Below are positions 1,967-15,546 of a stretch of 16,900 nucleotides of DNA, piece by piece. This stretch comes from Gemmatimonadota bacterium (GTDB lineage Bacteria; Gemmatimonadota; Gemmatimonadetes; Longimicrobiales; Longimicrobiaceae): contig JAHWJJ010000030.1 in the NCBI GenBank assembly GCA_019348475.1, positions 1-16,900 on the forward strand, in the 5' to 3' direction. Below the pieces are notes generated by a model. The model ran no database searches, was not told the DNA's origin, and was given only the letters and a program-made list of their open reading frames with translations. A program made the translations under genes and the position numbers. The first letter of the stretch is position 1. The number at the start of each line of letters is the position of its first letter.

Positions 1967-2287
1967 ATGCTGCCGGTTGAGCTTCAGAGTCCGAAGGAGA
2001 TCGCGGGCACCATCGCGCGGCGGGCGCGGGCGCTTCGGCTGCATCGCGCATGGACGCAGCAGGAGACGGCGGAGCGCGCCGGGGTTACGCTGGCCAGCTA
2101 CCGCCGGTTCGAGCGCACGGGCAGCATCTCCCTGGACCGGCTGCTGAGGGTGGCGGTCGCGCTGGGCGCATACGGCGGCCTGGAGCAGCTCTTCGCGCCT
2201 CCCCCGGCGGCTTCTCTGGCGGAGATGGCGCGGCTTGAGGCCTCGGAGTCGCGCAAACGGGGAAGGCGGCGCGATGCAAAGCCTTGA
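1967..2287 (+). CDS. HipB-like XRE-family antitoxin
   Basis: A 106-aa DNA-binding protein with a Cro/C1-type helix-turn-helix at about residues 15-65: the ARRARALRLHRAWTQQETAERAGVTLASYRRFE pattern (in pieces) contains the classic TQ-x-x-x-A-x-x-A-G-V recognition unit. A short linker and a strongly basic C-terminus (RKRGRRRDAKP) follow. In HipBA systems this protein neutralises the kinase and represses the operon. It overlaps the hipA-like gene by 14 bases, so the two are translationally coupled. No Shine-Dalgarno precedes the ATG, and the predicted promoter lies so close that the mRNA may be leaderless. Confidence 0.85.
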   Translation: MLPVELQSPKEIAGTIARRARALRLHRAWTQQETAERAGVTLASYRRFERTGSISLDRLLRVAVALGAYGGLEQLFAPPPAASLAEMARLEASESRKRGRRRDAKP

Positions 2288-3497
2288 AGTGTTCCTCAGC
2301 TGGGGCGACGAGGACGTGCGCGTGGGCACGCTCGCCGGGCGCGGCCACCACGTGTTCTTCGATTACGCGCCGTCGTTTCTGGCCCGGCCGCTACCGATCT
2401 CACCGTTCAAGCTCCCGGTCCGCCCGGGCGTGTTCGAGCACTCGGACCGCGAGTTCGCCGCGCTGTTCGGCGCGTTCAACGACTCCCTTCCGGACGGCTG
2501 GGGGCTGCTGCTGATGGATCGCGAGTTCCGCAGGCGGGGGCTGGATCCCGCCGCCGCGACTCCGCTCGACCGCCTTGCGTACATCGGCACGCGCGGGATG
2601 GGCGCCCTCACGTACCATCCGCCGTGCGACGTGGAGGATGCGGTTCTCCGGATCGACCTCGATGCTGTCGCGCGGCAGGCGGAGCGCGTCCTGGAAGGGA
2701 GCGCCGAAGAGGTACTGCCCGCGTTGCGGATTGCCGGCGGCTCACCGGCGGGCGCGCGTCCAAAGGTGGTGGTCGGTGTGGGCGACGGTGGGCGCCTCGT
2801 TTCCGGAACGGCGGACCTTCCGCCGGGCTACCGCCACTTCCTCGTCAAGTTCCTCGCACGGGAGGACCCGCCCGACCTGGGCGCGGTGGAATGGGCGTAC
2901 TCCGCCATGGCATCCGCGGCGGGCGTCGAGGTGCCCGCCGCGCGACTGTTCGAAACCGGGGACGGCACGCGGTACTTCGGCGCGGAACGCTTCGACCGCG
3001 TGGGGAACGCCCGGCTGCACATGCACACCCTCAGCGGCCTGCTGCACGCAAGCCACCGGATTCCCTCGATGGACTACGAGGGCCTGCTTCGCGCCACGCG
3101 GGCGCTGACGCGGGATCAGAGGCAGGTAGAAGAGGCATTCCGGCGGATGGCGTTCAACGTGCTGGCGCACAACCGCGACGACCACGTGAAGAACTTCTCG
3201 TTCCTCATGGACCGCGGCGGGGAGTGGCGGCTCGCACCCGCGTACGACCTTGTGTTCTCCACCGGTCCGCGCGGTGAGCATACAATGGCGGTCGCGGGCG
3301 AGGCCCGACGGCCCGGAGCCGGCGACATGCTGCGCGTGGGGGCGACGTGCGGCATCGACGCCGACCGGGCGCGGCAGATCATCGGTGAGGGCGGTGACGC
3401 CGTCGACCGCTGGCCGGAGTTCGCGCGGGAAAGCGGCGTCGCTGAAGCACGGATCCGGGAGATCGGCGCCGTCATCACGAGCGTGCGGCCCGTATGA
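2274..3497 (+). CDS. hipA: HipA-family serine/threonine kinase toxin
   Basis: A 407-aa protein, close to the usual HipA length. The start at 2274 has GGAAGG seven bases upstream; a longer frame from 2235 would lie inside the antitoxin gene. The N-terminal HipA subdomain (about residues 2-117) contains NDSLPDGWG, typical of the family. The kinase lobe shows a Gly-rich loop GGSPAGARPK (155-164), the ATP-contacting Lys in HFLVKF (Lys192), and ERFDR (238-242). It also carries the catalytic loop HNRDDHVKNFSF (Asp302, Asn307) and the metal-binding Asp in LAPAYD (Asp325). The spacing of these three residues matches E. coli HipA Asp309/Asn314/Asp332. All key residues are intact, so the kinase is probably active. 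HipA-type toxins phosphorylate translation factors such as GltX; the target here is unknown. Confidence 0.92.
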   Translation: MQSLEVFLSWGDEDVRVGTLAGRGHHVFFDYAPSFLARPLPISPFKLPVRPGVFEHSDREFAALFGAFNDSLPDGWGLLLMDREFRRRGLDPAAATPLDRLAYIGTRGMGALTYHPPCDVEDAVLRIDLDAVARQAERVLEGSAEEVLPALRIAGGSPAGARPKVVVGVGDGGRLVSGTADLPPGYRHFLVKFLAREDPPDLGAVEWAYSAMASAAGVEVPAARLFETGDGTRYFGAERFDRVGNARLHMHTLSGLLHASHRIPSMDYEGLLRATRALTRDQRQVEEAFRRMAFNVLAHNRDDHVKNFSFLMDRGGEWRLAPAYDLVFSTGPRGEHTMAVAGEARRPGAGDMLRVGATCGIDADRARQIIGEGGDAVDRWPEFARESGVAEARIREIGAVITSVRPV

Positions 3498-7748: not shown

Positions 7749-10700
7749 ATGCGCGTGCCCCCCCTCCGCCAAAACGTGCTGCTCATAGTCGTGGCGCTGG
7801 GGATCGGCGTCGCGTGGGGGTGGCGCGGCTCGGCACGCTCCGACCTTGCCGGCGACCTGGCTGCGCTGGCCAGCCGCGGGGGAACGGGAATCACGCCCCG
7901 CCTCTCCATCCTTCCCGATCCGCCGGTCCGTTCCGGCACGGTCCCCGCCCGGCAGGTGGCCGCGCTCGTCCGCCGCCTCGGCACGCTCGCGGACAGCGGC
8001 GACGCCCGGGCGCTTCACCTGCGCGCGCTTGCGGACCTCATGTGGAGTTCCCCCCGCGAAGTCCGGCCGGTGGACCGCGCAATCGAGTGGCTTCACACCG
8101 CCGAGCGGCTGGAGGGCGGCTCGGCCGCGCTCTACTCGGACCTGGCGGCGGCGCACATGGTCCGCGCGGAGCGGGCCCAGAGTGCATACGACCTGGTGCT
8201 CGCGATCCAGTTCGCGGAACAGGCGGTCGCTCTGGACCCGCGCAGCCGCGCCGGCGCGTACAACCGCGCGCTCGCGCTGGACCGGTTTCACCTGCGCTAC
8301 CAGGCGGCTGAGGCGTGGCAGACCGTGCTGGCGCTTGGTGGGCCTGCGGCGGTGGCCGAGGCCCGGCTCCGCCTGCGGAGCCTGCAAAGCGGTGGACCGC
8401 GGCGTCCCGCCGCGGACGCACCCGCGGCGGCGCTGGCGGCGTTCGCCGGCCGTGAACCGCAGTGGGCCCGCGGCTGGGCCACGGACACGCTCCTTCCCGC
8501 CTGGGGCACGGCGGTGGCGAGCGGCGACAGCGCGCTTGCGACTGGGCGGCTGCGCGCGGCCGCGGCCCTTGGCGGGGCGCTGCAGAGCCGGCCCGGAGAC
8601 GGCACGGTCGCGCAGGCCGTGCACGACATCCGCCGCGTGGAGGCGAACCCGGCCGCCCTGCGCCGCCTGGCGGGCGCGTGGGCGGAATATGGGGCGGCGG
8701 CGGCGGCGCTCGACCAGCGCCGCGAACAGGTGCCGGTCGCGCTCTTTCAGCGCGTGCGCGAGCAGGCGCGGGGCTCGCCCGTGCTCCGCGACTGGGCGGA
8801 GTACCACTACGGCGTGTCGCTCTTCTATGCGGGTGACGCGGCCGCCGCGGCCCCGGTCTTCGTCCGCCTGTCGTCCGCCGTGGACGCCGGGCGCTTTCCC
8901 GCGCTTGCGGGGCGCACGCGCTGGTCTTTGGGCACGCTCGCGCTGCGCGGGGGCGACTACGCCGCGGCGCGCCCGCACCTGGCGCAGGCGATCCGCCTTT
9001 TCGAGCAGGCGGCGGAAGCCGAGAACCGGGGGGCGATGCAGGCCATGCTGGGAGAGGTCCTGTTCGCGCTGGGCCAGGACGCCGAAGCGTACACCTCCAT
9101 GCACGCCGGGCTTGCCACCCTGCGGCCGCACGGGCGGTCGCTGCGGCGGCACAACCTGCTCTTCGGCCTTGTGCATTACACGACGGTGGAGGGGCTGAAC
9201 CACGCGGCCCTGGCCATTCAGAGCGAAGACATCGCCGCCGCGGCGGCGCAGGGGCCGGGGGTGCGGGCGGAGGCGCTGCTTTCCCGCGCACGCGCCCTTG
9301 CCGCGGCGGGCCGCTATTCCGGCGCGGCGGCGGACGTGCAGGCCAGCGTGCCGCTGCTGGATTCGATCGCCGGCCCGCGGCAGCGGGCGTGGCTTGGGGC
9401 GGACCAGCGGACCGCGCGCGCGGCGCTCCAGGTGCCGACGCGGCCGCATGCGGCCGCCGCCGCGCTGGACTCGGTGGTGGCTGCCCTGCGCGAGGACGTG
9501 GCGGTGGAACGCCTGCTCATCGCCCTTACCCAGCGCGCCGAAGCCCGGGTGGCCGTGGGCGATGCGCGCGGGGGGGCGGCGGACCTGGATTCGGCGGCCC
9601 AGGTGATCGGCCGGCTGAGCGGCGGCGTCGCCCATGCGGCGCTGCGTGCCTCCATGCTCGACGCCCGGCGGCGCGTGTTCGACCGGCTGGCGCTGCTTCA
9701 CGTTCGCGACGGCCGGCCGCGTGACGCGCTGCTTGCCCTGGAACGCAGCCGTGCGCCGGTGAGTGGCTCCGCGGGGGGCGCTCGTCCACGCCCCGGGCGG
9801 ATCGGGTCAGGACGCGGCGAGGCCGCGGTGGAGTACGCGCTGATCGGCGACACCCTCCTTGCGTTTGCCGTGGCGGACACGGCGGTGTGGCTAGAGCGCA
9901 GGACGGTGGATGGGGACGGTCTGCGGCGCATGGCGGAAGCGGCACGGACGCGGCTGGAGCTGCGCATGGCGGATGGCGCCACGTCGGCGATGCTCGCCCG
10001 CCTGTACGACGTGCTCGTGCGGCCCGTGCAGGGGTACCTCGCCGGGCACGAGCGGCTGGCGGTCGTGGTGGACGGGGAGCTCGCGGCCGTGCCGTTCGCG
10101 GCGCTGCGCGACACCGCGCGCGACCGTTACCTGGTGGAGAGCCACGTGCTGCGGCTTGCCCCGGCCCTGGCCGCCGAGCCTGGACGGCGGCGGGGCGCCG
10201 AAGGCCGGACGCGGGCCGTCTTCGTCGCGGACCCGGCGTTCCGGCCGGCGGAGTTCCCCGCGCTGCAGCGGCTCCCCGAGGCGCTTCCCGAGACGCGGGC
10301 GCTGTCGGCTGCGTATCCCGGGTCGGTGCTGCTGTCCGGCGATTCCGCCAGCGCTCGGCGGGTGCGGGCTGCGCTCGCGTCCAGCTCTCTGTTCCACTTC
10401 GCCGGCCACGCGGTGTTCGACGACGCTCGCCCGGAGCGCTCGTACCTGGTGCTCACGCCCGACGCGAGCGGCGCCGGGCGTCTTTCGGCCGAACAGATCG
10501 ACGACATGGACCTCCGCGGCCTGCGCCTGGTGGTGCTGGCTGCGTGCCAGACCCAGCGTTCCGGGTCCGGGCGGTCCGGCGGGTTCGCGGGCCTTTCCGG
10601 CGCGATGCTGCGCGCCGGGGCCGGCGGCGTGGTGGGCAGCCTGTGGCGCGTGGACGACGGGCTGACGCGCGAGCTGATGACCGGCTTCCACGACGCGTAC

Positions 10701-10820
10701 CGTGCCACCGGCGACGCGGCCGCGGCGCTTCGGCAGGCGCAGCTTCGCCTTCTCGGTTCCCCCGACGCCACGCTCCGCTCGCCCGCCGCGTGGTCCGGCT
10801 TCCGCTACGCGGGCGAGTGA
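7749..10820 (+). CDS. Membrane-anchored TPR-CHAT protease
   Basis: A 1023-aa protein. An N-terminal hydrophobic segment (NVLLIVVALGIGVAWGW, about residues 9-25) acts as signal anchor, implying that the rest is outside the cytoplasm. Alanine-rich TPR-like helical repeats run from about 90 to 680, clearest near 165-195, 350-380, 391-420 and 433-455. The C-terminal CHAT (caspase HetF-associated with TPRs) domain, about 720-1020, has VVDGELAAVPFAAL, the catalytic His in HFAGHA (His887) and the catalytic Cys in VVLAACQT (Cys933), then GGVVGSLWRVDD and the closing AAWSGFRYAGE. The dyad is intact. CHAT proteins are clan CD peptidases, for example separase-like or Craspase TPR-CHAT. ATG 7749 is chosen over TTG 7677, which would leave 24 charged residues before the anchor; neither has a good Shine-Dalgarno. 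Confidence 0.9.
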   Translation: MRVPPLRQNVLLIVVALGIGVAWGWRGSARSDLAGDLAALASRGGTGITPRLSILPDPPVRSGTVPARQVAALVRRLGTLADSGDARALHLRALADLMWSSPREVRPVDRAIEWLHTAERLEGGSAALYSDLAAAHMVRAERAQSAYDLVLAIQFAEQAVALDPRSRAGAYNRALALDRFHLRYQAAEAWQTVLALGGPAAVAEARLRLRSLQSGGPRRPAADAPAAALAAFAGREPQWARGWATDTLLPAWGTAVASGDSALATGRLRAAAALGGALQSRPGDGTVAQAVHDIRRVEANPAALRRLAGAWAEYGAAAAALDQRREQVPVALFQRVREQARGSPVLRDWAEYHYGVSLFYAGDAAAAAPVFVRLSSAVDAGRFPALAGRTRWSLGTLALRGGDYAAARPHLAQAIRLFEQAAEAENRGAMQAMLGEVLFALGQDAEAYTSMHAGLATLRPHGRSLRRHNLLFGLVHYTTVEGLNHAALAIQSEDIAAAAAQGPGVRAEALLSRARALAAAGRYSGAAADVQASVPLLDSIAGPRQRAWLGADQRTARAALQVPTRPHAAAAALDSVVAALREDVAVERLLIALTQRAEARVAVGDARGGAADLDSAAQVIGRLSGGVAHAALRASMLDARRRVFDRLALLHVRDGRPRDALLALERSRAPVSGSAGGARPRPGRIGSGRGEAAVEYALIGDTLLAFAVADTAVWLERRTVDGDGLRRMAEAARTRLELRMADGATSAMLARLYDVLVRPVQGYLAGHERLAVVVDGELAAVPFAALRDTARDRYLVESHVLRLAPALAAEPGRRRGAEGRTRAVFVADPAFRPAEFPALQRLPEALPETRALSAAYPGSVLLSGDSASARRVRAALASSSLFHFAGHAVFDDARPERSYLVLTPDASGAGRLSAEQIDDMDLRGLRLVVLAACQTQRSGSGRSGGFAGLSGAMLRAGAGGVVGSLWRVDDGLTRELMTGFHDAYRATGDAAAALRQAQLRLLGSPDATLRSPAAWSGFRYAGE

Positions 10821-10821
10821 T
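10768..10821. repeat. Direct repeat, copy 1 (3' end of TPR-CHAT gene)
   Basis: This 54-bp segment encodes the last residues and stop of the TPR-CHAT protein (TLRSPAAWSGFRYAGE). It recurs at 11003-11056 with 3 substitutions. Confidence 0.9.
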
Positions 10822-10911
10822 CGAACTCGCAGACCGATTCAACCCGGCCATGTGCCGCGTGCCTCTGGTTCGTGAAAAACGCGCTTCATGACCATCTGAA
10901 GGAGGTACGCC

Positions 10912-11055
10912 ATCGACCGGCCCGGCAGTGGAGCGGCAACGAGAACGCCGTTGCCGGCCGATTTCAGGAGCCCCGCTCCGCTGGGGGTCGTCTTGTGGTC
11001 CCCCACGCTCCGCTCGCCCGCGGCGTGGTCCGGCTTCCGCTTCGTGGGCGAGTGA
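10912..11055 (+). pseudogene. Remnant of a second CHAT gene 3' end
   Basis: In the frame between TGA 10897 and TGA 11053, the last ~20 codons read SPTLRSPAAWSGFRFVGE then stop. This is nearly identical to the C-terminus of the TPR-CHAT protein just upstream. The preceding ~28 codons do not match the CHAT domain. AGGAGG (10900-10905) stands before the frame but no ATG or GTG follows it; the first codon in place would be ATC 10912. The simplest reading is the residue of a tandem CHAT gene lost by deletion, or a partial duplication. Confidence 0.6.
10934..10956. other. Hairpin between CHAT gene and paralogue 1
   Basis: Eight-base perfect arms (CGGCAACG at 10934-10941 and CGTTGCCG at 10949-10956) with a 7-base loop. 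There is no U-run, so it is probably not a terminator; it may stabilise or attenuate the intercistronic transcript. Confidence 0.35.
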
Positions 11056-11056
11056 T
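11003..11056. repeat. Direct repeat, copy 2
   Basis: A 54-bp match (51 identical) to 10768-10821, ending at the same stop codon and placed immediately before the start of the next gene. Confidence 0.9.
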
Positions 11057-11070
11057 TGAGAGGACGCGTG

Positions 11071-11868
11071 ATGGAGTTGCACATCGAAGTGATTGGGTTG
11101 TGCATGTTCGTCCACCCCGCGGAGGCAGAAGGGACGCACGTGCTGATGCCGCACGCGCACGCGGCGGGGGTGGAGCAGCATTTCGCCTGTTGCCTCTTCC
11201 CAGGCCAGTCCAAAAAGGTGCCGATCGAAGGGCACGCCATCGAGTTCGACGTGAAGGGCTCGGGGAGCCTGTACCTGCCGGACGACCCGCCGGTCATCAA
11301 CGCCGGGCGCTACGCAAACAAAACCGTAGACGCAGCGCAGTGGGGCACCAAACCACGCGGAAGCGTTGCGGCCCGGGTCACCATTCCTCCGGCGGCTGTC
11401 ATCCACTACGCCGAAACCGCCGAGTACGAGGTCATCGTTGACGGTACTTCCGACGACAGGAAACCGCTTACTCACAAGGTCGTCTGGCGGATCACCGACA
11501 TCACCGGCCCTGTTACATGGAACGTGCAGAGGCTCACGTACTCGAACGGCCACGGGCCCGCGCCGGCTCCCACCCCGTCTTCGGGCACGTTCCCATACAC
11601 TGCGGGTGCGACTGTAAAGGTAACCGTGGAATGCCAGCCGCGGCCGATTCCCACGGAGCCGATTCCGTATAACGAGGAGGCGCACCATTTCCGGGCGTAC
11701 CTTGCCCTTTTCCGTCCTCCTGTCGGCAAGTCGGTCAGGCTCAAGATGAAGAGCGACACCTCCGCCCTGCGTCAGACGCCGGATCTCCCGGAAGATCCTG
11801 CCGCCCTGAGGGACCAACCGTTTTCGCTCGCGTACAATTGCATGCTCGGCCAAGCGCCCGCTGGTTGA
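11071..11868 (+). CDS. Unknown protein, GLCMF/AYNCM family, paralogue 1
   Basis: A 265-aa protein of no family I recognise. The start at 11071 has GAGAGGA six bases upstream. It has no signal peptide or membrane span and appears beta-rich. Motifs shared with the neighbour at 12022 are: IEVIGLCMFVHP (5-16) followed by HVLMPH (23-28), GSVAARVTI (97-105), LTHKVVWRI (133-141), HFRAYLALF (206-214), and a C-terminal SLAYNCMLG (252-260) with Cys257 nine residues from the end. Same order, similar spacing and near-equal length show that the two are duplicates. It sits downstream of the TPR-CHAT gene and ends at a strong terminator. Possible roles are substrate, adaptor or regulator of the flanking proteases, all by context only. 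Confidence 0.75.
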   Translation: MELHIEVIGLCMFVHPAEAEGTHVLMPHAHAAGVEQHFACCLFPGQSKKVPIEGHAIEFDVKGSGSLYLPDDPPVINAGRYANKTVDAAQWGTKPRGSVAARVTIPPAAVIHYAETAEYEVIVDGTSDDRKPLTHKVVWRITDITGPVTWNVQRLTYSNGHGPAPAPTPSSGTFPYTAGATVKVTVECQPRPIPTEPIPYNEEAHHFRAYLALFRPPVGKSVRLKMKSDTSALRQTPDLPEDPAALRDQPFSLAYNCMLGQAPAG

Positions 11869-11895
11869 GACGCAGGTCTCCGCGGACCGAACCAG

Positions 11896-11931
11896 AGCCC
11901 CGAGCGCCGGCTGGCGCTCGGGGCTTTGCGT
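11896..11931 (+). terminator. Intrinsic terminator between the paralogues
   Basis: A 13-base perfect stem (AGCCCCGAGCGCC at 11896-11908, GGCGCTCGGGGCT at 11913-11925) with loop GGCT is followed by TTGCGTT. It separates the TPR-CHAT/paralogue 1 unit from the paralogue 2/caspase unit. Confidence 0.8.
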
Positions 11932-12021
11932 TCGGGTGCGAAATTGATGTTCGGCGTCCATCTGAGTGGGGGTGATAAGATCGCCGCCTCAGTCGGGCTC
12001 ACGTCCAGGAGGGAGAGCAAT

Positions 12022-12828
12022 ATGCCTTTCAAGCTGCAGATCGAATTCGCGGGCCTGTGTATGTTCGCCGCGCGGAGCGACGACCACCCGCGCATGTACG
12101 TGCTGATGCCCAGCGTTCGTGGCAATCATCACGGCGTGGGGCTGCACATCCCCGTGCTGAAGTTCGATACGAACCATCTGCAGCCCGGACAGACCGGCGG
12201 CTCGGGGCTGTTTGCCCAGAAACTCCTCCGCAATCGGGAGTTCGTCATCCCCGGCTCCGGCGCAGCTCAGCCGATCTGCTCACAAATCGCGGACGTGGGA
12301 CAGGCCACGGGCAAGCAGGTACTTCCGAACCTTCTCGGTCCCAGTCCGAGCGGGCTCGCGGCACGGGTCACCCTGCTGGGCGGGGCGATGACGGCGGTCG
12401 CGCGCGGCGCCTGTTGGGAGTGGCAGGCAGGCGAGTACCGCACCCTTTCGCACCGGGCGCTCTGGGAAGTTCCCGCCATGGAGGGCGACGCGCTGCCCAT
12501 CGAATTGCTGTCGCTGGCGACGTCGCAACCCGAGCACCTGACCCTGTATCCTGTTACGGCGGGCAGCGAGCTGGTGCTGCGGATCAACGTGCATCACATG
12601 ACGGCGGAGGATCTCGTACCCGAGCAGACCAGCACCGGCCGCCGGCCCGACGTGGGTGACTACGGCTGGCATTTCGCCCCTTATTACGATCTGTTCGGCC
12701 CGCAGACACCGCTGCGCCTGCCGCGGTTCAGGCCCGATGCGGACTGTCTCTCCGCCACAGGCACCTGCGCTGAGTGGCTGGAATCCGGAGGCCTGGCCTA
12801 CAACTGCATGCTGGCGGGCGGCGGTTGA
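12022..12828 (+). CDS. Unknown protein, GLCMF/AYNCM family, paralogue 2
   Basis: A 268-aa protein homologous to the product of 11071-11868. The start is ATG 12022, with AGGAGGGAG beginning at 12007; an open frame from 11926 would begin inside the terminator tail and is not credible. Shared blocks are: LQIEFAGLCMFAA (5-17) with MYVLMPS (25-31), SGLAARVTL (110-118), LSHRALWEV (142-150), HLTLYP (172-177), HFAPYYDLF (217-225), and GLAYNCMLA (257-265) with Cys262 seven residues from the end. Overall identity with paralogue 1 looks low outside these blocks, so the duplication is old. The central region differs, with extra Cys and Trp residues (CWEWQAGEYR). It lies 60 bp upstream of the caspase gene and probably forms an operon with it. 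Confidence 0.75.
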   Translation: MPFKLQIEFAGLCMFAARSDDHPRMYVLMPSVRGNHHGVGLHIPVLKFDTNHLQPGQTGGSGLFAQKLLRNREFVIPGSGAAQPICSQIADVGQATGKQVLPNLLGPSPSGLAARVTLLGGAMTAVARGACWEWQAGEYRTLSHRALWEVPAMEGDALPIELLSLATSQPEHLTLYPVTAGSELVLRINVHHMTAEDLVPEQTSTGRRPDVGDYGWHFAPYYDLFGPQTPLRLPRFRPDADCLSATGTCAEWLESGGLAYNCMLAGGG

Positions 12829-12888
12829 GTGCGCCAGCGCCGCGGGGACCTGATCATTGGTTCATGACTTTCGACGCAGGACGCGCCA

Positions 12889-13668
12889 ATGAAACGAGGA
12901 GTTTCGGTCCATTTTGCGGTTCCGGTACCGGGCCCGGGGTGCTATGTGGGCTATCCGCTCGTTCAATCGGTTGGTGCCTCCCGTACCATGGCGGAGATCG
13001 CACGCGCCTGCGGGTTCTCGGTGCGGGAACCCGTGGTGGGGAACCAGATCTCTCGCGACGTGGTCACAGCCGTGCTCAGCGGTATGGCCGGTGAACTGCA
13101 CGAAGGAGACACGCTGCTGTTGACCTACGCCGGGCACGGCTGCCGCGAAGTGGCGACCCCCGGAACCGGCGGCGGAGCGTACCGCGAGAGCTGGTGCCTT
13201 CCCGACGGGCAGCTCTGGGACCACGAGCTGTACGCGTTGTGGCCCGCGTTCAGGTCGGGAGTGCGCATCATCGTGGTTTCTGAGAGCTGCTACTCGCAGA
13301 CGATCGGGAGTCAGCGGCTCCACGACGCGGAGGTGATCGCTTTCCGGGAGCGCAGGTTGGGGGATCTCGCCCGGACCTGGCAGCTTCCGGAGGACTGCAC
13401 CCGCTGGGCGATTCCCGATCGGCCGAATGACGCCAGCATCGGTGCGTCCATCCTGGTGCTCGGGGCCTGCAAGGAAGAGGAAACCGCTGTGGACGGGCTG
13501 TTCACAAAGAAGCTGTGGCAAACGTGGACGACCGGAGGCGCCGGCGATTACTGCCAGTTCATGAGGCGGATCAAGAACGCGATGTACCCGGATCCCCAAA
13601 CGCCAGCAATGTCGTTTGTCGGCCGCCCAAACCCGGGATTTCTCCAGGAGCAGCCGTTCACGATCTGA
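12889..13668 (+). CDS. Caspase-like (peptidase C14) protease
   Basis: A 259-aa cysteine protease with a single caspase/metacaspase-type p20-like domain and little else. His83 lies in LLLTYAGHG (77-84) after a hydrophobic strand, and Cys134 in VRIIVVSESCYSQT (125-138). Between them, YRESWCLPDGQLWDHELYALW is typical of stand-alone bacterial caspases. The distal half, ILVLGACKEEETAVDGLFTKKL (in pieces, 188-209) and FVGRPNPGFLQEQPFTI, matches the p10-like end of the same group. The usual DSCHSG around the nucleophile is SESCYSQ here; the Cys itself is kept. There is no signal peptide, so it is likely cytoplasmic. Related orthocaspases cleave after Arg or Lys; specificity here is unproven. AGGA lies upstream of ATG 12889. 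Confidence 0.88.
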   Translation: MKRGVSVHFAVPVPGPGCYVGYPLVQSVGASRTMAEIARACGFSVREPVVGNQISRDVVTAVLSGMAGELHEGDTLLLTYAGHGCREVATPGTGGGAYRESWCLPDGQLWDHELYALWPAFRSGVRIIVVSESCYSQTIGSQRLHDAEVIAFRERRLGDLARTWQLPEDCTRWAIPDRPNDASIGASILVLGACKEEETAVDGLFTKKLWQTWTTGGAGDYCQFMRRIKNAMYPDPQTPAMSFVGRPNPGFLQEQPFTI

Positions 13669-13797: not shown

Positions 13798-15252
13798 CTA
13801 CTGGCTCACCACCCGCTTCCACTGGCCCGCCGGGAGCACGGAATTCTCGTTCTCCACCTGGTTCAGGATGGCCAGTTCGGGGAGGGGGATCACGGACGGG
13901 TGCTGGCGGTTGAAGTCGGCCAGCGTCATGGGCCGGGTGGTGCGCACCACGTCGATGCGGTTGGGGCGCACGTTCAGCACGGCGGGGTCGTTCACGTCGT
14001 CGAAGCTGAAGATCACCTGGCGGAACGCGGACTCGTACTGCCGGAACCGCTGCGCCGGCGTGTACGCCAGCACCTGGTAGGTGCGGCCGCCGTGCTCGAT
14101 GAAGGCCGCCATTCCGGCGATGACCCCCTGCTGCGTCTGGGCCTGGAAGTATCCCACCACCGCGGGGTTGCCGTTGACGTTCTGCCGCCCGGCCTGCCCG
14201 GGGCGCAGCCCCTGCTGCGAAAAGAAGCGGCGCGCCGCGTCCTCGGCGCCGGCGGCACCCTGCGCCAGGGTGAGCTGCATCACCGCGTCCTGCCGCGGGG
14301 CCAGCGCGTTGACGGCCTGCGGCAGGTTCTGCGTGCGCCACCCCTGCGGAAAGTCGATGCGAAAGCGCAGCTCCGGGTGCAGGAACACGCCGCCCCGAAA
14401 GAAGCCCTGCCGCGGGTCGTCGCCGTACACCAGGCCGTCGATGCGGGCCAGGTACGCGTCGCGCCCCAGCTCCAGCGGCGCGCGGGTCACCGTGTCGGCG
14501 CGCGCCTGCGCGGCGGCGATGCGCTCCGGCTCGGCGGGGTGCGACGCCATCCACGACGGCAGCGCGCTGCGCCCCGACGACTCGCCGATGCGCATAAGGG
14601 TGGCGAAGATGTCGTCCATCTCGCGCACCTCGTACCCCTCGCGCAGGGCGTAGCTGAACCCAAGCTCGTCCGCCTGCCGTTCGGCGTTGCGGCCGTAGCT
14701 GAGAAAGAGCAGCTGCATCCCCGTTTGCGCGAGCCCGCCGAAGCTCTGCGCCGCGCTGGGAAAGAGGATGCTCCCCACCCCCAGCCCCAGCTGCGCCAGC
14801 TGGCCGCGGCTGATCTGGCTCACCGAGTGGCGCGCGGTCACGTGACCGATCTCGTGCCCCAGGATGGCGGCCAACTCCGCCTCCGAGTCGATCAGGTTCA
14901 TCATCCCCCGCGTCATGAAGATGAAGCCGCCGGGGAGCGCGAACGCGTTGGGGGTGGGATCGTCCACCACGCGAAACGTCCACGGCAGCTGGGGGCGCTC
15001 CGACTCGCGCGCCAGCTGCGCGCCCACGCGCTGCACGTACTGCTGCAGCGCCTCGTCTTCCACCAGCCCCAGCTGCTGCGCCACCTCCTGCGCGGCCTGC
15101 TGCCCGATCTGGATCTCCTGCGCCTCGGAGACCAGCGCCAGCTGCCGCCGCCCCGTCACCGGGTTGACGGCGCATCCCGCCGCCAGCACGCACGCCAGCG
15201 CGGCCGCCGCGCACCCGCGCGCCCGCCTCCGAAGCCTCACTCGCTCGGCCAT
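13798..15252 (-). CDS. M48-family metalloprotease lipoprotein
   Basis: A 484-aa exported zinc protease related to the BepA/YfgC and LoiP group, which degrade misfolded envelope proteins. The start at 15252 is preceded by GGAGGAGGGG. The signal sequence ends in a lipobox, LAAG-Cys27. The peptidase domain contains NAFALPGGFIFMTRGMM (102-118), the zinc motif HEIGH (His133, Glu134, His137) and the third ligand in NAERQADELG (Glu191). After the catalytic domain there is no TPR. A C-terminal region instead has a beta-rich domain (ELRFRIDFPQGW) and a closing segment (LADFNRQHPSVIPLPELAIL) seen in other stand-alone M48 lipoproteins. Lipidation and zinc-ligand assignments follow family knowledge. Confidence 0.92.
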   Translation of the reverse strand: MAERVRLRRRARGCAAAALACVLAAGCAVNPVTGRRQLALVSEAQEIQIGQQAAQEVAQQLGLVEDEALQQYVQRVGAQLARESERPQLPWTFRVVDDPTPNAFALPGGFIFMTRGMMNLIDSEAELAAILGHEIGHVTARHSVSQISRGQLAQLGLGVGSILFPSAAQSFGGLAQTGMQLLFLSYGRNAERQADELGFSYALREGYEVREMDDIFATLMRIGESSGRSALPSWMASHPAEPERIAAAQARADTVTRAPLELGRDAYLARIDGLVYGDDPRQGFFRGGVFLHPELRFRIDFPQGWRTQNLPQAVNALAPRQDAVMQLTLAQGAAGAEDAARRFFSQQGLRPGQAGRQNVNGNPAVVGYFQAQTQQGVIAGMAAFIEHGGRTYQVLAYTPAQRFRQYESAFRQVIFSFDDVNDPAVLNVRPNRIDVVRTTRPMTLADFNRQHPSVIPLPELAILNQVENENSVLPAGQWKRVVSQ

Positions 15253-15546
15253 CGTCCCCTCCTCCTCCATGCGCTCGTCATTCGGTCGTGCCGCGCGCGA
15301 GGGGCAAAAAGCACACCCGGCGCGCCGCCCGCGGGAGCAGGAGCCGCGCGTGCACGCATGAGCCACCGGACCTCGCCGCCTTCGTTCCCCCGCGAACGCC
15401 GTGGCCGCGTGTGGAATCGCGTTCGCGGACTCCAGCACCGCGTCCCCGCGGGTGACTTGCGCAGGCGGCCATTTCTGACGATTCTTCGCGACTGCTGCGC
15501 GGGGACGTAGCACCTTCCCCACCATCTCCCCTCGACTTTGCCGACG
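15253..15546. other. Divergent intergenic region
   Basis: About 290 bp between the divergent M48 and hydrolase genes. It must carry both promoters, but no convincing -35/-10 pair stands out; TTGCGC (15457-15462) with GATTCT 17 bases on is a weak candidate for the plus strand. No repeat, RNA gene or further coding frame was seen. Confidence 0.4.

Follow-up and report, generated by a model that had tools for sequence, protein, structure and literature searches.

A conserved gene module of TPR-CHAT proteases, FAM proteins and varying second peptidases in Gemmatimonadota

The locus and its proteins

In the Gemmatimonadota contig JAHWJJ010000030.1, a gene for a TPR-CHAT protease is followed by genes for two related proteins, P1 and P2, and for a caspase, an arrangement found here to belong to a module conserved in the phylum. 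The contig was analysed in its entirety (16.9 kb, hereafter the window), and its source genome consists of 504 contigs and is 76.6% complete. FAM is used as the working name for the family comprising P1, P2 and their relatives. The order TPR-CHAT, P1, P2, C14 caspase was evident from the list of open reading frames (ORFs), all on the + strand, and the gene caller placed no further gene between the four, confirming the uninterrupted run on one strand reported in an earlier note on this DNA. The features are as follows.

7749..10820, + strand: TPR-CHAT protease gene, 1023 aa, with a predicted N-terminal membrane anchor and His887/Cys933
11001..11057, + strand: repeat of the 3′ end of the CHAT gene, matching 10766-10822 in 52/57 nt and located 15 nt 5′ of P1
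11071..11868, + strand: P1, a FAM protein of 265 aa with its ATG at 11071, in its own clade with P0002 and P0003
11897..11924, + strand: G+C-rich hairpin between P1 and P2, a possible terminator with a weak T run, identified by eye
11940..11959, + strand: GAAW-N11-CGTCC element, a possible promoter for P2 and the caspase, from a pattern chosen post hoc
12022..12828, + strand: P2, a FAM protein of 268 aa with its ATG at 12022, member of the caspase-linked clade
12889..13668, + strand: C14 caspase of the GSU0716 (3bij) family, 259 aa, His83/Cys134, no signal peptide seen

A pattern scan did not pick up the hairpin candidate at 11897..11924.

The TPR-CHAT protein matched PF12770 over residues 748-1022 (E 1.3e-58; 199.2 bits, cut-off 24), and weak Pfam matches to TPR were located upstream of this domain. 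His887 and Cys933 are both present; of 30 aligned module CHATs, 29 retain them and L082 is gapped at these positions. By profile and intact dyad the protein is a CHAT peptidase, and its proteolytic activity is predicted. No PDB sequence matched it at E 0.001, in a copy of the database that presumably included the Csx29 chains. A hydrophobic or lipobox-like N-terminus was seen in 23 of the 26 module CHATs whose start lay on the contig, counted either at the N-terminus itself or in the open frame immediately preceding the called start, with lipoboxes assigned by eye (L079, L081 and L082, for example). No such stretch was found in the FAM and caspase rows, and the other peptidases adjoining FAM had, by eye, no evident signal peptide at their start. 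P0008, a FAM relative, has a twin-arginine-like start. The puzzle of a CHAT protein predicted to be anchored beside a leaderless caspase, raised for the window alone, is thus a recurring property of the module.

The caspase of the window scored 27.8 bits against PF00656 (cut-off 21.4). The whole-genome search with the same profile missed it, giving no match in the source genome, and it was added by hand to the list of C14 genes. Its solved homologue is GSU0716 (3bij, E 2.1e-28). The gene caller started the gene at 12988, yet the protein read from 12889 aligns with 3bij from its residue 3 onwards. His83 and Cys134 were found in all 14 aligned module caspases, and the protein is assigned to C14 by profile and His/Cys dyad, its activity being predicted.

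P1 and P2 shared 26% identity (BLASTP E 5e-11, computed from frames a little longer than the proteins, 11056-11868 and 11926-12828). Neither had a match above the cut-off in Pfam, where Mgm101p and Ku appeared at E ~0.2 only, and nothing up to E 1 was obtained from NCBIfam, PADLOC or PHROGs. AlphaFold models of FAM were confident (predicted template modelling score, pTM, 0.83) and had no fold match in the PDB. His42 and Cys262 were present in 41/41 rows of the FAM alignment and His217 in 37/41, with Asp in the other four; Cys262 sits near the C-terminus within a conserved C-terminal motif (41/41 rows), and Pro30 and Pro209 were as invariant as His42 and Cys262. Named relatives came from Gemmatimonadota (L042, L043, P0007) and Longimicrobium sp. 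(P0003). Outside Gemmatimonadota few matches appeared in protein searches and a scan of genome contigs, searches that depend on shared short words.

The FAM tree placed P2 with the caspase-linked clade and gave P1, P0002 and P0003 a separate starred branch, approximately 3.3 changes per column away from that clade. A recent tandem duplication of P1 and P2 is contradicted by this tree, and the "duplicated" protein of the earlier note is better described as two old and distinct lineages. Another tandem FAM pair was found behind a single TPR-CHAT at L075:7834-9451 (G300:C94), with no recognised peptidase adjoining. The repeat of the CHAT 3′ end in front of P1 resembles the junctions elsewhere at which CHAT directly precedes FAM, and is a probable relic of such a junction. 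A diversity-generating retroelement was considered as the origin of the repeated tail and rejected, the differences not being adenine-specific by eye. Since P2 belongs to the caspase-linked clade and P1 to a separate clade behind the repeated CHAT tail, the window probably represents two joined modules, CHAT-P1 and P2-caspase.

Linkage and co-divergence in the phylum

Neighbours within 5 kb were scored for 36 FAM places, spread over 16 genomes of the phylum, after two pieces of one FAM match at G273:C29 had been merged (37 rows to 36 places). The genome scans scored the best 6 or best 5 candidates per genome, and a strong CHAT was defined as one of 122 bits or more, a threshold of our own choice. 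A strong CHAT occurred within 5 kb, each time on the same strand, at 32 of the 36 places against 0.22 expected from CHAT density, C14 at 13 against 0.14 expected, and both at 12. Random placement of FAM relative to CHAT and C14 genes, which had been named as an outcome that would defeat the idea of a protease module, was not what these genomes displayed, and the idea is borne out by the conserved CHAT-FAM(-C14) linkage. The four places lacking CHAT were G180:C880, where the contig begins inside an anti-sigma-like gene, G224:C2, a contig end, G286:C59, a solitary FAM copy, and G140:C16, a weak match.

Seen from the protease, FAM lay within 5 kb of 30 of the 48 strong CHATs, and all 18 that were without it were examined. 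Two of these aligned with the window CHAT over nearly all of the latter's length and are by this alignment of the module type: that of G180:C63 (6e-147), whose locus is cut by the contig end, and that of G156:C1:769307 (2.8e-44), immediately 3′ of which lies a weak FAM-like gene (8e-7). The remaining 16 CHATs (14 fetched loci) are more distant and aligned only from about residue 600, at 3e-21 or weaker as the best per locus; the CHAT of L093 had no tblastn match to the window CHAT and 2e-21 by phmmer. In the window's genome there were two CHAT matches, with FAM 3′ of both. Because of the linkage at 32/36 places, the mostly distant nature of CHATs without FAM and the presence of FAM behind both CHATs of this genome, one TPR-CHAT sub-family is seen to pair nearly one to one with FAM. 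We also noticed that G180:C63 and G180:C880 (L089, L029) each end inside an anti-sigma-like gene and look like the halves of one module locus.

A recognised peptidase adjoined FAM at 21 of the 36 places (C14, n = 12; S8, n = 3; M28, n = 3; S1, n = 2; M48, n = 1), the labels being set by hand from gene calls, phmmer and hmmsearch labels and Pfam scans. The C14 places were P2 of the window, G299:C149, G251:C116, G273:C109, G286:C139, G243:C449, G032:C7, G180:C880, G224:C20, G299:C28 and G300:C54 (two), and a caspase also adjoined FAM in L042 and L043, outside the 36. The caspase was directly 3′ of FAM at 9 places and separated from it by a sigma/anti-sigma-like gene pair, described below, at 3 (L030, L068 and the second module of L070). 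Subtilases (S8) adjoined FAM in L031, L072 and, as a partial frame, L080; M28 peptidases with an N-terminal extension in L036, L039 and L073; and trypsin-like S1 peptidases in L040 and L074, the latter being the second CHAT locus of the window's genome. The gene next to P1 is P2 and not a peptidase. Adjacency of CHAT and FAM was also found where no second protease follows. The earlier note took a pair of clan-CD proteases as the defining feature, whereas elsewhere the second slot is occupied by S8, M28, S1 or M48 peptidases.

Peptidase-class labels needed 11 changes on the FAM tree against 20.2 when shuffled, and 8 on the CHAT tree against 15.8, in both cases with 0/200 shuffles as low; in these trees the class "none" combines true absences with contig ends and contexts that are unknown. 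M28 was clustered in the CHAT tree. FAM distances correlated with those of CHAT (Mantel r 0.79, n = 28) and of the caspase (r 0.95, n = 11), each with 0/5000 permutations, and the FAM-CHAT correlation was r 0.53 (n = 23) after thinning of near-copies. The 265-aa family is thereby tied to both proteases, as had been proposed. L038 was excluded from the FAM alignment as too weak, the FAM of L079 was missed by the gene caller and lies outside both tree and Mantel test, and the CHAT-FAM comparison excludes the window, L075_8, L029, L042, L033, L034 and L035, mostly without a called CHAT. L068/L070 and L025/L027 share flanking genes, and the rows are therefore not independent. The correlations are in part explained by common descent of entire cassettes; they show joint movement and divergence of the parts, and physical contact is not implied. 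The linkage of CHAT, FAM and protease is itself real and conserved.

Sigma/anti-sigma-like genes and other neighbours

A pair of sigma and anti-sigma-like genes was located between CHAT and FAM-caspase in L024-L028, L041 and L043, and was also present in L029 and L042, on contigs without CHAT. Besides the three loci with the pair between FAM and caspase, it was found near the module in L032, L033, L039 and L071 and as a fragment in L069. The earlier note considered the usual partners of such proteases to be absent; the window does lack the pair, but its relatives carry it. In 3/3 tested cases the module sigma gene encoded an extracytoplasmic function (ECF) sigma factor (TIGR02937, 53.8-67.5 bits, cut-off 42.9). 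The putative assignment "anti-sigma-like" is made by position and shape and not by family match: one of three scanned proteins had a weak zf-HC2-like start under the cut-off, and a simple hydropathy rule gave one transmembrane helix in 14 of 17 rows, missing L033, L071 and the L069 fragment. At E 1e-20 the anti-sigma-like family was detected in 15 of 16 FAM genomes and in 8 of 379 others (best 5-6 candidates per genome), and within the taxonomic family of the window in 12/12 FAM genomes and 0/4 others. It also occurs unlinked to the module; the window's genome has an unlinked sigma/anti-sigma-like pair on another contig (C260).

The pattern GAAW-N11-CGTCC, fixed after inspection of the sequences, was found in 9 of 36 FAM upstream regions against 0.004 expected per 220 bp; eight of these are caspase-linked and the ninth is L036. 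A second pattern, GTYGGAYGG, likewise picked after looking and with a background of 0.016 per 230 bp, occurred upstream of 10/18 sig genes at module loci, 0/6 unlinked sig genes, 6/36 FAM, 3/14 caspase and 0/26 CHAT genes, and was absent from the window. Several sig upstream regions resembled sigma-70 promoters by eye.

Further genes were observed around the module. In L028 the caspase is followed by a third clan-CD-like gene (10436-11230; CHAT 25 bits, PADLOC SAVED_CHAT 1e-8), with counterparts in L025, L026, L027, L041, L042 and L043. Behind this small CHAT-like gene lie MotA/ExbB and OmpA genes (L028:11265-13088), and genes with the same start occur in L041 and L042. Against PADLOC the L028 pair gave ZorB1 at 2.3e-21 and ZorA at 1.1e-5, and is thus a Zorya-like pair adjoining the module. 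The presence of ZorA/ZorB-like genes beside some copies hints at a role in defence. Small ORFs with a common MKKLSLKLDELRIDSF-like leader and Cys-rich tails, similar to precursors of peptide natural products, were noted at L024:3111-6852 and L086:2825-3285, and the one that was scanned had no Pfam match. Within the window, a helix-turn-helix gene (PF01381) overlaps a HipA gene (HipA_C, 5.7e-50) at 1967-3497, resembling a HipBA-type toxin-antitoxin pair, and an M48 peptidase gene (13798-15525, 2.4e-40) is convergent with the caspase gene. A mobile-element origin was dropped, no match being obtained in plasmids, phages or IMG/VR.

A possible two-stage switch, its alternatives and its precedents

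The function of the module may be depicted as follows. TPR-CHAT would sense an envelope signal outside the cytoplasm. Where the sigma/anti-sigma-like pair is present, CHAT or a later protease would cut the outer part of the anti-sigma-like protein and free the sigma factor, which would in turn raise transcription of the FAM-protease unit. FAM would bind its cognate protease and control its release, and the released protease would act inside the cell in defence, stress-induced arrest or death. The module would then be a two-stage proteolytic switch, with TPR-CHAT as its trigger in the envelope and FAM as the partner that holds or delivers a leaderless executioner protease, in the window the caspase. 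We favour this account tentatively and give it somewhat less than an even chance. In a wider version, FAM would be a new kind of protein for protease control: a single beta-rich scaffold through which TPR-CHAT, as the one alarm in the envelope, is coupled to caspase, subtilase, trypsin-like and M28 enzymes (at least four unrelated classes), making it the bacterial equivalent of an apoptosome adaptor whose executioner can be exchanged. This version is possible but more doubtful.

Several observations weigh against the switch. Export of TPR-CHAT is a prediction, and the CHATs of L025, L071 and L080 (3/26) had no hydrophobic or lipobox-like N-terminus. The sigma/anti-sigma-like pair is absent from the window and several CHAT-FAM loci, and anti-sigma cleavage and sigma-driven transcription are therefore not a local circuit everywhere. 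A shared ECF promoter for CHAT and sig genes was sought and rejected, with dyad counts of at most 10 against 8-11 in shuffles. No recognised peptidase adjoined FAM at 11 of the 36 places (of these, L033, L076 and L081 were Pfam-scanned), and contigs end at three more (L032, L035, L069). The S1 gene of L040 is on the opposite strand, and the M48 gene of L034 follows a solitary FAM without CHAT nearby. The S8 enzymes may not all be active, since L080 has only a partial frame and inspection of the L072 enzyme for motifs revealed no GTSxA. The class clustering in the trees is mainly due to C14. S8 arises twice in each tree, and S1 was not clustered (500/500 shuffles as low). Finally, the window CHAT falls outside the caspase-linked group of the CHAT tree.

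The main rival to the switch is that FAM is a direct substrate, cut by TPR-CHAT or by the adjoining protease, with the fragment acting as effector or released regulator; the conserved C-terminal motif around Cys262 may serve as the tail that is recognised. The persistence of CHAT-FAM adjacency without a second protease is in its favour, as are the conserved position of Cys262 and the precedent of Craspase, in which Csx30 is cut by Csx29 (PMC10028731). TPR-CHAT is predicted to be exported, however, and the FAM rows, apart from P0008, have no transmembrane helix or signal by the rule used. In addition, FAM varies along with the class of second protease. We regard the substrate model as unlikely, and the data do not separate it from the favoured switch. 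That FAM is itself an enzyme, with His42, His/Asp217 and Cys262 as a hydrolase-like triad and with proteases that merely mature or license it, would suit the conservation of these residues and the confident models without a fold match. No hydrolase family was matched, however, and the equal invariance of Pro30 and Pro209 suggests structural conservation, making this reading decidedly improbable.

In operons of bacterial gasdermins, the gene for a protein of similar size adjoins those for CHAT or caspase-like proteases. FAM might be a divergent relative of this kind that forms pores once the neighbouring protease has opened it, and its size, type of neighbour and short conserved C-terminal tail resemble those of bacterial gasdermins. 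FAM differs from bacterial gasdermins in having no match in Pfam, PADLOC or PDB folds, and this reading, without sequence or fold support, is disfavoured as very improbable. Chance or housekeeping co-location without a functional link is hardly credible: the flanking genes shared between some related loci would fit it, but the 32 linkages against 0.22 expected occur in different chromosomal settings, and the correlation of FAM with CHAT survives the thinning of near-copies.

Craspase (type III-E) is, by analogy, the nearest precedent for the proposed mechanism. In it the TPR-CHAT protease Csx29 cleaves Csx30, the inhibitor of an ECF-like sigma factor, CASP-sigma, and, as in the module, the TPR-CHAT gene is accompanied by genes for a partner protein, an ECF-like sigma factor and the inhibitor of that factor (PMC10028731). 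In contrast to Craspase, the module has a TPR-CHAT predicted to be exported and a second, changing protease, and FAM is about half as long as Csx30 (565 residues, same source). No Cas7-11 was seen among the scanned neighbours, and the scanned ORFs of the window gave either matches to other families or none, although no search aimed at Cas7-11 or a CRISPR array was made. For the swapping of proteases, the nearest precedent by analogy is given by the MoxR-vWA/VMAP ternary conflict systems, with a constant core and interchangeable trypsin- or caspase-type peptidases (Kaur et al. 2020, PMC7159879). In the module, unlike these systems, the constant parts are CHAT and FAM and the peptidases are separate genes; no MoxR, vWA or STAND component was found in the subset of neighbours scanned with Pfam. 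EACC1/EACC2-caspase systems combine a caspase with a constant partner, and EACC2 loci have genes for an ECF sigma factor and a TPR protein (PMC7159879 and PMC8195603). FAM is, unlike the EACC partners, a separate protein without a family match, and the window caspase scored 14.2 bits against NF047832 (EACC1-associated), far under the cut-off of 140. A term search of the main text of three papers, these two included, found no "Gemmatimonad-".

Regulated proteolysis of anti-sigma factors is characteristic of RseA/RsiW-type systems. The relatives of the window resemble these in having a membrane anti-sigma-like protein and an ECF sigma factor beside a predicted envelope protease, and differ in that the trigger would be CHAT and the output FAM with a protease, the cleavage being hypothetical. 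This type of proteolysis is also named in PMC10028731. Among the titles and abstract openings listed by literature searches that covered neither subscription papers nor preprints, none described a CHAT-FAM-protease module. The module is a conserved new variant among bacterial protease-effector systems.

Bacterial CHAT proteases and caspases are best known from defence systems in which it is the partner protein that reveals the purpose of the protease. Here FAM, which has no recognised relative or matched fold, accompanies a predicted exported TPR-CHAT at 32/36 places, and the class of second protease tends to go with the FAM lineage. Harmful proteases are usually kept inactive by class-specific inhibitors. 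If FAM does control proteases of unrelated fold, it would represent a general way to silence harmful proteases, and a route from an envelope signal to a cytoplasmic caspase in bacteria would become testable.

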